Source of the DNA: Streptacidiphilus melanogenes
GTDB taxonomy: Bacteria > Actinomycetota > Actinomycetes > Streptomycetales > Streptomycetaceae
Assembly (NCBI RefSeq): GCF_000787835.1
Contig: NZ_BBPP01000005.1
Span: forward strand, 197,315-261,314
Length of the DNA: 64,000 nt
Direction of reading: 5' to 3'
Shown in pieces: positions 21,887-50,146 of the stretch. How positions within the stretch are numbered: the stretch's first letter is position 1; the number at the start of each line of letters is the position of its first letter. Both the position numbers and the translations under genes were made by a program. The notes below the pieces were generated by a model. That model saw only the letters and a program-made list of their open reading frames with translations, ran no database searches and had not been told where the DNA came from.

Positions 21887-22810
21887 TTGAGCGGATTTGT
21901 CGAGAAGCCCCAGCCGGTGCAGGTGCCCGGCCTGATCCACCTGCACACAGGAAAGGTGCGCGACCTTTATCGGGACGAGGCGGGCCTGCTGGTGATGGTC
22001 GCCAGTGACCGCACCTCCGCTTTCGACTGGGTGCTGCCGACGGACATCCCCGACAAGGGCAAGATCCTCACCCAGCTCTCGCTCTGGTGGTTCGAGCGTC
22101 TGGCCGACCTGGTGCCCAACCATGTCGTCTCCACCGAGGTCCCGGCCGGCGCCCCTGCCGACTGGGAGGGGCGCACACTCATCTGCCGCAACCTGCGCAT
22201 GCTGCCCGTCGAGTGCGTCGCCCGCGGCTACCTGACCGGTTCCGGCCTGCTGGAGTACGACGAGCAGCGCACGGTCTGCGGCATCACCCTCCCCGAGGGC
22301 CTGGTCGACGGCTCGGAGCTGCCCGCCCCGATCTTCACACCGGCCCTGAAGGCCGAGGTCGGCGAGCACGACGAGAACGTCCCCTACGAGGAGGTCGCCC
22401 GCCGCGTCGGCGCGGAGACCGCCGCCCAGCTGCGGCAGACCACGCTGGCCGTCTACGGCCGTGCTCGGGACATCGCCCGGGAGCGGGGGATCATCCTGGC
22501 GGACACGAAGTTCGAGTTCGGCCTCGACGAGGACGGCGAGAGCGCCGAGGCAGGGCCGACGCTGGTCATCGGCGACGAGGTGCTGACGCCGGACTCCTCC
22601 CGCTTCTGGCCCGCGGACGAGTGGGAGCCGGGCCGGACCCAGCCCTCCTTCGACAAGCAGATCATCCGCAACTGGCTGAAGTCCCCGGAGTCCGGCTGGG
22701 ACCCGGCCGGCGAGACGCCGCCCCCCGCGTTGCCCGCGGAGATCGTGGAGCGGGTCCAGGCCCGCTACGTCGAGGCCTACGAGCGTCTGACCGGGCTGGC
22801 CTGGTCCTAG
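21887..22810 (+). CDS. purC: SAICAR synthetase
   Basis: 307 residues, of the longer PurC type. The enzyme joins aspartate to CAIR using ATP. It shows LIHLHTGKVRDLYRDEAG at residue ~14 (ATP-binding), ASDRTSAFDWVLPTDIPDKG around 44, NLRMLPVECVARGYLTGSGL around 103-122 and ADTKFEFGLDED around 206, ending with the SRFWPADEW stretch. The start is TTG at 21887, 5-6 nt after GAGGGA, and gives the family N-terminus. It lies 106 bp after the dimethylformamidase-like gene, and a 19-bp-stem terminator follows. Confidence 0.95.
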   Translation: MSGFVEKPQPVQVPGLIHLHTGKVRDLYRDEAGLLVMVASDRTSAFDWVLPTDIPDKGKILTQLSLWWFERLADLVPNHVVSTEVPAGAPADWEGRTLICRNLRMLPVECVARGYLTGSGLLEYDEQRTVCGITLPEGLVDGSELPAPIFTPALKAEVGEHDENVPYEEVARRVGAETAAQLRQTTLAVYGRARDIARERGIILADTKFEFGLDEDGESAEAGPTLVIGDEVLTPDSSRFWPADEWEPGRTQPSFDKQIIRNWLKSPESGWDPAGETPPPALPAEIVERVQARYVEAYERLTGLAWS

Positions 22811-22926: not shown

Positions 22927-23002
22927 TGGAGCGGACGACGAGATTCGAACTCGCGACCCTCACCTTGGCAAGGTGATGCTCTACCAACTGAGCCACGTCC
23001 GC
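22927..23002 (-). tRNA. tRNA-Gly(GCC), copy 1
   Basis: 76 nt including an encoded CCA end. Standard cloverleaf: acceptor GCGGACG/CGTCCGC, D loop AGTTGGTA with GG, anticodon loop TTGCCAA, and T arm with TTCGAAT. Discriminator T. Identical to the copy at 23044-23119. Confidence 0.97.
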
Positions 23003-23043: not shown

Positions 23044-23119
23044 TGGAGCGGACGACGAGATTCGAACTCGCGACCCTCACCTTGGCAAGGTGATGCTCTA
23101 CCAACTGAGCCACGTCCGC
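23044..23119 (-). tRNA. tRNA-Gly(GCC), copy 2
   Basis: Same 76-nt sequence as the neighbouring copy, with encoded CCA and anticodon GCC. It is transcribed leftward, 41 bp before copy 1. Confidence 0.97.
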
Positions 23120-23215
23120 ATGTGCCCCGGGACCCTTGGGCCTCGGTGTGCAGTCCACTCTACCTCATCGCCAGGAGTGCTTTCGCCACCCTTTTGGTGA
23201 GACCGAGCGGACAAG

Positions 23216-23287
23216 AGCAGGTGACAGGGATCGCACGCTGTGCCTTCCCTCTGGAAGAGGGACGCTCTACTACTGAGCTACACCTGC
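23216..23287 (-). tRNA. Atypical tRNA-Gly(UCC) with altered D and T loops
   Basis: About 72 nt, no encoded CCA. The acceptor GCAGGTG/CACCTGC pairs perfectly; the anticodon arm TCCCT-CTTCCAG-AGGGA presents UCC with U33 and A37; the discriminator is U and the top pairs are G1-C72 and C2-G71, the bacterial glycine identity set. The D loop is AGTAGTA, one nt short and without the GG that docks into the T loop. The T arm reads ACAG-C-G-TGCGATC-C-CTGT: a bulged C in the stem and GTGC where normal tRNAs have GTTC. Both interacting elements of the tertiary elbow are thus changed while glycine identity is kept. It is first in an operon with two ordinary tRNA-Gly genes. It may be a specialised non-ribosomal tRNA or a decaying gene. 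Confidence 0.75.
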
Positions 23288-23442
23288 GAGAGCCGCCCCG
23301 CTGACCTGGCCTTTCGGCTCGTGCCTGCGGTGCGTTCCGCTGAGAAGAACATTAGCCCATCTCGCGGGCCGTGATCACCACGGCGGGGCGGTATGTCCGC
23401 ATTGCCCCGAAAAGTCATAGACGAGGACGCGGAGAGATTGCG

Positions 23443-23772
23443 TCAGCTCGCCTGGGCGAAGGCCTCGTAGACGTGCTTGGGCAGGCGTCCGCGGGCCGGC
23501 AGGTCGATTCCGCGCGACTGGGCCCAGGCGCGGACCGTCGCGGGGTCGGGTGCGATCTCGGTCCGGCGCGGGTGGGCCTTCAGGGCCGCGGCGGCGCGGG
23601 CCTGCTTCCGGCCCGCCTGCACATACGGAGCGAGGGCGGAGCGGAGTTTTTCCGCGTTCTGGGCCGACAGGTCGATCTCGTACGACTTTCCGTCGAGACC
23701 GAACTGAACCGTTTCCTCGGCGACGCCTCCGTCCAGATCGTCGGAGAGCGTGACCACAACGCGCTGAGCCAT
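23443..23772 (-). CDS. lsr2: Lsr2-type nucleoid protein (xenogeneic silencer)
   Basis: 109 residues. Lsr2 is the actinobacterial H-NS analogue that coats AT-rich DNA and silences acquired genes. The N-terminal dimerisation domain AQRVVVTLSDDLDGG...VQFGLDGKSYEIDLS is intact; the linker is basic (AGRKQARAAAALKAHPRR); the C-terminal DNA-binding domain DPATVRAWAQSRGIDLPARGRLPKHVYEAF includes the RGR motif that inserts into the minor groove. The ATG at 23772 is used; a TTG 9 bp upstream is less likely, and GAGAGGA precedes both. It is divergent from purS. Streptomyces usually carry two Lsr2 paralogues. Confidence 0.93.
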   Translation of the reverse strand: MAQRVVVTLSDDLDGGVAEETVQFGLDGKSYEIDLSAQNAEKLRSALAPYVQAGRKQARAAAALKAHPRRTEIAPDPATVRAWAQSRGIDLPARGRLPKHVYEAFAQAS

Positions 23773-24124
23773 GGAAGCCAATCCTCTCGGGCTTTGCCGT
23801 GCGACCGCAGGTGCTGGCCGCGACCGGCGTTGCCATTCTGCCCTCCGGGGGCCCCGGAATCGAAGAGGCAGGTTTTTCGGTCTCTATTTCCGTGTCGTTT
23901 CGGTACCGCGCCGATACCGGTGCGAAACCTCAGAATCGTGCATTTTCGGCAGGCGTGTCGCCGCACTTCGGCGGCCGCGGGGCGACAGGCCGGCGGTGGG
24001 GTCTTTGTGTGAACCTCCGCACGATCCGCAGATCTACGCGCGTCACGCTGGATGAGTCTCCAAGATCGCATTTTCGTCCCGGTAGGCTGGGAAGTCCCCG
24101 CACCACTTATCACCGGGAGTACCC
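23773..24124. other. Divergent lsr2-purS intergenic region
   Basis: 352 bp, notably more AT-rich than the genome around 23860-23950, where Lsr2 itself could bind. It includes an imperfect dyad at 23896-23930 (GTTTCG ... CGAAAC with CGGTA/TACCG inside). The purS -10 box is at 24083. Confidence 0.6.
24083..24088 (+). promoter_or_regulatory. TAGGCT -10 box of purSQL
   Basis: TAGGCT, 36 nt before the purS GTG, implies a leader of about 30 nt containing the GGGAGT ribosome binding site. Confidence 0.55.
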
Positions 24125-49857: not shown

Positions 49858-50146
49858 GCCGTTTCGGCCTGCCGCGCCTTCCGGACTGTTCCGGGCCTTC
49901 CGGCTGGAACGGCCCGGAAACGCAGAACGGCCCGCAGGCTGTTCCGCGGTCCCTGCGTCCAGGGGCCGGGGCATCGGGGACGATCCGATGAGCCTGCGGG
50001 CCGGGTGACTGCTCTGGATTGCGCTTGCGCGCCAGTGTTGGAGTGTCCGCTGCCGGGAGCTACCCGTCACGGACGGGGCAGCGCTAGCGCGCAGCCACCT
50101 CACGCGTCCTGGTAGTACTCAACTCAGGATCACCTCCTTTCAGTGT
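49825..50146 (-). ncRNA. Candidate structured RNA starting with a 16S-complementary element
   Basis: Expected start ~50146 from the promoter at 50153-50182. The first ~20 nt contain GAAAGGAGGTGATCC (50141-50127), fully complementary to the last 15 nt before the final base of Streptomyces 16S rRNA. Then come a hairpin (CGCTGC/GCAGCG with CCCGTC/GACGGG, 50048-50083), a GCGC-GCAA-GCGC hairpin with a GNRA loop (50032-50021), a 12-bp closing stem (GGCCCGCAGGCT at 50002-49991 with AGCCTGCGGGCC at 49940-49929) enclosing two small hairpins, and a terminator hairpin. A TTG-started 12-codon frame follows the complement at 10 nt; a 94-codon GTG frame (50103-49819) has weak codon bias and runs into the terminator. 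It may be an sRNA, a leader-peptide RNA or an unusual mRNA. Confidence 0.5.

Follow-up and report, generated by a model that had tools for sequence, protein, structure and literature searches.

The window analyzed here, a stretch of 64,000 nucleotides from Streptacidiphilus melanogenes, contains a tRNA-Gly(UCC) gene of unusual sequence (in the following, the odd tRNA). It sits between an lsr2-type gene and two canonical tRNA-Gly(GCC) genes, with purC converging from the opposite side (Table 1). The name purC is presumptive, being taken from the first-pass annotation of this DNA and from the sequence of the gene, and the lsr2-type designation is likewise assumed from that annotation. The named purC loci nearest to that of the window belong to Streptacidiphilus anmyonensis (93%) and Streptacidiphilus neutrinimicus (92%). 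A further Rfam hit of the window, on the minus strand at 49922-50146, is to the actinobacterial sRNA Ms_IGR-5; it scores 72 bits, against a gathering score of 45, and carries long insertions compared with the model.

Table 1. Features of the odd tRNA locus (window coordinates unless stated otherwise).
Feature	Position	Strand	Basis
purC, convergent neighbor, synteny anchor and marker	21887..22810	(+)	ORF; conserved neighborhood
Canonical tRNA-Gly(GCC), copy 2	22927..23002	(-)	ARAGORN
Canonical tRNA-Gly(GCC), copy 1	23044..23119	(-)	ARAGORN; own upstream GTAGAGT box
Odd tRNA-Gly(UCC)	23215..23287	(-)	ARAGORN, Rfam, alignment of 41 distinct orthologs
Rival hairpin GCRC-AGY-GUGC	alignment A2 columns 45-55; window 23215-23287	(-)	nearest-neighbor energies
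Putative -10-like box of the odd tRNA, TAATGT	23349..23354	(-)	cross-species comparison
lsr2-type gene, upstream of the odd tRNA, synteny anchor	23443..23781	(-)	ORF; tblastn matches in relatives

ARAGORN calls the odd gene, on the minus strand, as tRNA-Gly(tcc), with purC lying on the plus strand. It is a tRNA of family RF00005, with a full-length match (positions 1-71) of 52.1 bits, above the gathering score of 29; this is the lowest value among the eight tRNAs of the window, of which the other seven reach 65-72 bits. The features on which glycyl-tRNA synthetase (GlyRS) relies, G1-C72, C2-G71, U73 and the anticodon UCC, are intact, and the acceptor and anticodon stems are perfect. The D loop reads AGTAGTA (A14 G15 U16 A18 G19 U20 A21). 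The T arm is ACAG[C]G-UGCGAUC-CCUGU, the bracketed base being bulged, with A49 C50 A51 G52 [C] G53 on the 5' side of the stem, C61 C62 U63 G64 U65 on the 3' side, and a loop of U54 G55 C56 G57 A58 U59 C60. A18, G55, the T-stem bulge, A49-U65, A51-U63 and C32-G38 are thus combined in one gene. The glycine identity, the stems, the D-loop sequence and the bulged T arm had all been described in the first-pass annotation and are borne out by ARAGORN, Rfam and the sequence. Its statement that the D loop has lost GG holds for G18, which is replaced by A, but not for G19, which remains and has C56 as partner.

A normal tRNA-Gly(UCC) is encoded on another contig of the host genome (L025), so that the host can read GGA without the odd gene, and a canonical UCC gene accompanies the odd one in 20 further genomes of the family. 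These 21 canonical paralogs keep GG, GTTC, G49-U65 and G51-C63 (or a close equivalent), and all of them have C.A at positions 32-38. Canonical and odd tRNAs belong to the same isoacceptor class, with the same anticodon, acceptor end and discriminator and with similar acceptor and D stems; they differ in that the canonical form has AATGGTA in the D loop, GTTC, an unbulged T stem, G49-U65, G51-C63 and C32.A38. A role of the odd tRNA as sole decoder of GGA was rejected, as all genomes examined for it also have a canonical UCC tRNA.

Alignment of 41 distinct orthologs from Streptomycetaceae shows that the cloverleaf is kept, with 99.9% of stem cells paired. Compensatory double changes are found at nine pairs, some of them in the acceptor stem; the covariation score lies above all 500 shuffles, and sliding the stem partners reduces pairing to about half. 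The T stem is nearly invariant and hence outside what covariation can test. The anticodon UCC, G19-C56 and U54-A58 are invariant (41/41), and G15-C48 is kept in 40 of the 41 variants. A51-U63 and the T-stem bulge are likewise universal. The bulged C noted in the first-pass annotation is, as a base, specific to the host genome, the bulged base being U in 39 of 41 variants. Positions 32-38 always form a Watson-Crick pair (C-G in 22 variants, U-A in 19). A49-U65 occurs in seven variants including the window gene, and G49-U65 is kept in the other 34. The annotation had proposed aligning orthologs and looking for compensating changes, and had argued against decay; pairing, compensation, fixed unusual bases and the normal UCC isoacceptor alongside all agree with that view.

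Positions 18 and 55 are A/G in 36 variants and G/U in five, and are never mixed. GUGC is present in 36 of 41 variants, the window gene included, and without exception in the crown of the family. The basal genera g2 and g4 account for the five G18/U55 variants, which keep GUUC and have D loops reading AGTGGTA or AGTGGCA, from which it follows that AGTAGTA represents a single change of G18 to A. Orthologs with normal GG and GTTC, which the first-pass annotation had regarded as evidence against its proposal, are thus confined to two basal genera, and these copies, in which the bulge, A51-U63 and U32-A38 are already in place, have the appearance of an intermediate. On the best reading, the odd tRNA arose in Streptomycetaceae by duplication and rebuilding of the UCC isoacceptor, apparently within the family and from a form with G18 and U55.

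A covariance model of the odd tRNA (R1) tells the two kinds apart, giving 79-107 bits to odd genes and at most 68 bits to canonical ones. With this model, the gene was detected in 90 of 121 sampled Streptomycetaceae genomes and in all 132 sampled genomes of g9, the largest genus, which we take to be Streptomyces; the names given to genera are inferred unless backed by synteny with named loci. It occupies the same place in all 14 genomes of the window's genus, and named loci with the gene belong to Streptacidiphilus, Actinacidiphila, Streptomyces and Wenjunlia. One to three tandem copies occur per genome, with two or three adjacent copies at L094, L097, L122, L127, L136, L137 and L138, and some tandem copies differ from each other in the anticodon stem. 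Outside the family, the model found the odd tRNA in none of about 280 sampled genomes (15 from two sister families and about 269 others of the class), the best matches being 72-nt genes without a bulge. A pattern search for GUGC-bearing tRNA-Gly(UCC) elsewhere in the class recovered the known genes of the family, and its hits in other taxa looked like chance matches; no convergent GUGC form was found there.

Within the family, the odd tRNA is absent from all 27 sampled genomes of g14, which is Kitasatospora by synteny with named strains across as much as 3.9 kb, and from the three sampled genomes of g11. In g11 and in one Kitasatospora (G038, L113) the order of purC, two tRNA-Gly(GCC) genes and lsr2 is intact and the odd gene is cleanly absent. 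Kitasatospora nests together with Streptacidiphilus in a tree built from purC as the single gene, the backbone of which is unresolved in part; the absence is therefore read as loss. In most sampled Kitasatospora (L105-L119) the tRNA-Gly cluster no longer adjoins purC; loss thus goes with rearrangement of the locus, G038 having kept the order. In a further genome, G039, the absence is probably an assembly gap, because purC is missing there as well. An explanation of the Kitasatospora loss by meso-DAP wall chemistry was not adopted, since DL-A2pm is also present in Streptacidiphilus (PMC6113628), which has the tRNA.

A TANWGT box lies upstream of the odd gene in 100 of 105 orthologous regions, against 2.3% in shuffled sequence, at a distance of mostly 53-57 nt and of about 66-67 nt in the window's genus. 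A generic sigma-70 promoter scan called no consensus site, the -10-like box of the odd tRNA included. The comparison nevertheless suggests that the gene has its own conserved promoter-like box. The GTAGAGT box of the tRNA-Gly(GCC) genes is also kept in lineages without the odd gene. The earlier proposal that the odd tRNA is first in an operon with these genes appears doubtful, because each side has a box of its own.

By nearest-neighbor energies, which ignore tertiary contacts and modifications, the hairpin GCRC-AGY-GUGC is more stable than the T arm in 35 of 36 crown variants, by 1.4-5.7 kcal/mol, and less stable in the five basal variants, by 1.4-6.1 kcal/mol. The retention of G15-C48 argues for a normal L shape. 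In a speculative and rather doubtful model, the concerted change to A18/G55 (with G46) would let GUGC pair with the upstream GCRC, and the crown RNA would have, or could change into, a fold that lacks a normal T arm and cannot be held by EF-Tu, making it a family-wide glycine carrier set aside for wall synthesis or for an unknown acceptor.

Staphylococcal wall tRNA-Gly carries GUGC in place of GUUC. The wall tRNA-Gly(UCC) species of S. aureus and S. epidermidis share with the odd tRNA the anticodon UCC, GUGC, A51-U63 and, in the window gene, A49-U65; they too are extra to a normal isoacceptor, in hosts whose Fem enzymes build glycine into the wall. Non-proteinogenic tRNA-Gly of S. aureus, with A49-U65, A51-U63 and no G18G19, is thought to evade EF-Tu (PMC4052509), and one S. 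aureus isoacceptor is charged but poorly recognized by EF-Tu (PMC8007984). Whereas both G18 and G19 are replaced in S. aureus (UU or CU), all crown variants of the odd tRNA have A18 and keep G19. The T-stem bulge and the always-paired positions 32-38 are peculiar to the odd tRNA, whose host belongs to a different phylum. The likeness is convergent, given the different phylum and the intermediate steps seen in basal orthologs inside the family. By analogy, the odd tRNA may work like a staphylococcal wall tRNA as a convergent variant; we do not file it as a member, because G19 is kept, the T stem is bulged, 32-38 is closed and the origin lies within the family. The pseudo-tRNA of Bacillus cereus (tRNA-Other) reportedly has a wall phenotype (PMC3399842); it would be comparable as a tRNA-like gene outside translation with a link to the wall, which for the odd tRNA is a proposed one, but it flanks a pathogenicity island in one strain, whereas the odd tRNA is part of the core gene set across the family and its glycine identity is intact.

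In Streptomyces coelicolor, FemX or VanK attaches the one glycine that makes up the wall branch (PMC4790382). A FemAB gene is present in the host genome (G000:C85) and in 120 of 121 family genomes, those without the odd tRNA included, as well as in 78 of 148 Actinomycetes genomes, the odd tRNA never being found outside the family. Kitasatospora (27 sampled genomes) and g11 (3) keep FemAB and lack the tRNA. Strict co-occurrence with FemX/FemAB was thus not found across family and class genomes, nor was genomic linkage of the odd tRNA to wall genes. As FemAB is widespread where the odd tRNA is absent, the tRNA is not required for FemAB function.

Taken together, we consider the odd tRNA a dedicated non-ribosomal tRNA-Gly of Streptomycetaceae, kept from EF-Tu and the ribosome and most likely serving as glycine donor for FemX, with a probability of roughly 0.5. 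A duplicated and rebuilt UCC isoacceptor would have given rise to it. GlyRS would charge it, judging from the intact G1-C72, C2-G71, C35, C36 and U73. Weak binding of the charged form by EF-Tu would be expected from the bulged T stem, from A51-U63 and from the replacement of the G18-Psi55 contact by A18/G55; the T arm may in addition refold. Against escape from EF-Tu stands G49-U65, a strong EF-Tu pair that most genera keep. Pairing of 32-38 alters A-site binding and decoding by tRNA-Gly(UCC) (PMC10853795), and the closed pair would make the odd tRNA a poor decoder. Avoidance of translation is the best-supported step and quite probable, since A51-U63, the lost G18 and the closed 32-38 pair are combined in one molecule. 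The charged tRNA would then be available to FemX for the single glycine branch on the wall precursor. By analogy, FemX is the most likely user, and the tRNA would improve glycine supply rather than be a requirement. The first-pass proposal of a dedicated wall donor accordingly fares well where it touches the tRNA itself (no decay, a normal UCC isoacceptor beside it, GUGC fixed in the crown, A51-U63 throughout). The closed 32-38 pair and the possible rival T-arm fold, which that annotation had not noticed, likewise point away from translation. What speaks against exclusivity is that FemAB genes occur in Kitasatospora and in roughly half of the other Actinomycetes genomes, all of them lacking the odd tRNA.

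Three other explanations were weighed. Decay of a duplicate would fit the lower tRNA score, the bulged T stem and the loss in two genera, yet a pseudogene with broken stems and drifting sequence is refuted by the near-perfect pairing, and the compensatory changes, the fixed unusual bases, the conserved promoter-like box, the tandem copies and the presence throughout the largest genus make this reading extremely improbable. Continued service in translation as a weak or conditional decoder, for example to tune the reading of GGA codons, which are rare, by analogy with the bldA tRNA, seems unlikely. GGA is rare in high-GC genomes, other tRNAs decode with U32-A38, the pair found in about half of the variants, and the invariant anticodon, G19-C56 and U54-A58 together with the nearly constant G15-C48 make an L shape likely. 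However, the anticodon is a GlyRS determinant too, so that decoding need not be the reason why it is conserved; all genomes examined for it have a canonical UCC tRNA, Kitasatospora manages without the odd one, C32-G38 (22 variants) would shorten the anticodon loop, and the bulge and loss of G18-Psi55, universal in the crown, should weaken function with EF-Tu and the ribosome.

The odd tRNA might instead be a glycine donor or regulatory RNA for a use other than FemX: it could supply another aminoacyl-tRNA enzyme, act as a decoy in its uncharged form or give rise to tRNA fragments. The same signs of translation avoidance apply here, FemAB presence does not track the tRNA, and the rival hairpin, which in 35 of 36 crown variants would take the T arm apart, is what one might expect of an RNA that has acquired a new partner. 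The fully kept GlyRS determinants and the compensatory changes in the acceptor stem favor charging, and we know of no universal core user of glycyl-tRNA besides FemX in Streptomycetaceae; such a use is therefore a minor possibility.

If the preferred reading of a dedicated FemX donor is true, the main antibiotic-producing family would have reached, through a conserved additional tRNA-Gly, its own solution to sharing glycyl-tRNA between ribosome and wall, independent of the staphylococcal one and convergent with it, and the odd tRNA would tell what a tRNA must lose to leave translation. Our search of the open-access literature found no published description of this tRNA in Streptomycetaceae. 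ARAGORN failed on, or misnamed, 6 of the 24 odd-tRNA orthologs in named loci (missed at L180, L192, L196, L242 and L253; called tRNA-Trp(cca) at L202), and standard annotation may hide the gene.
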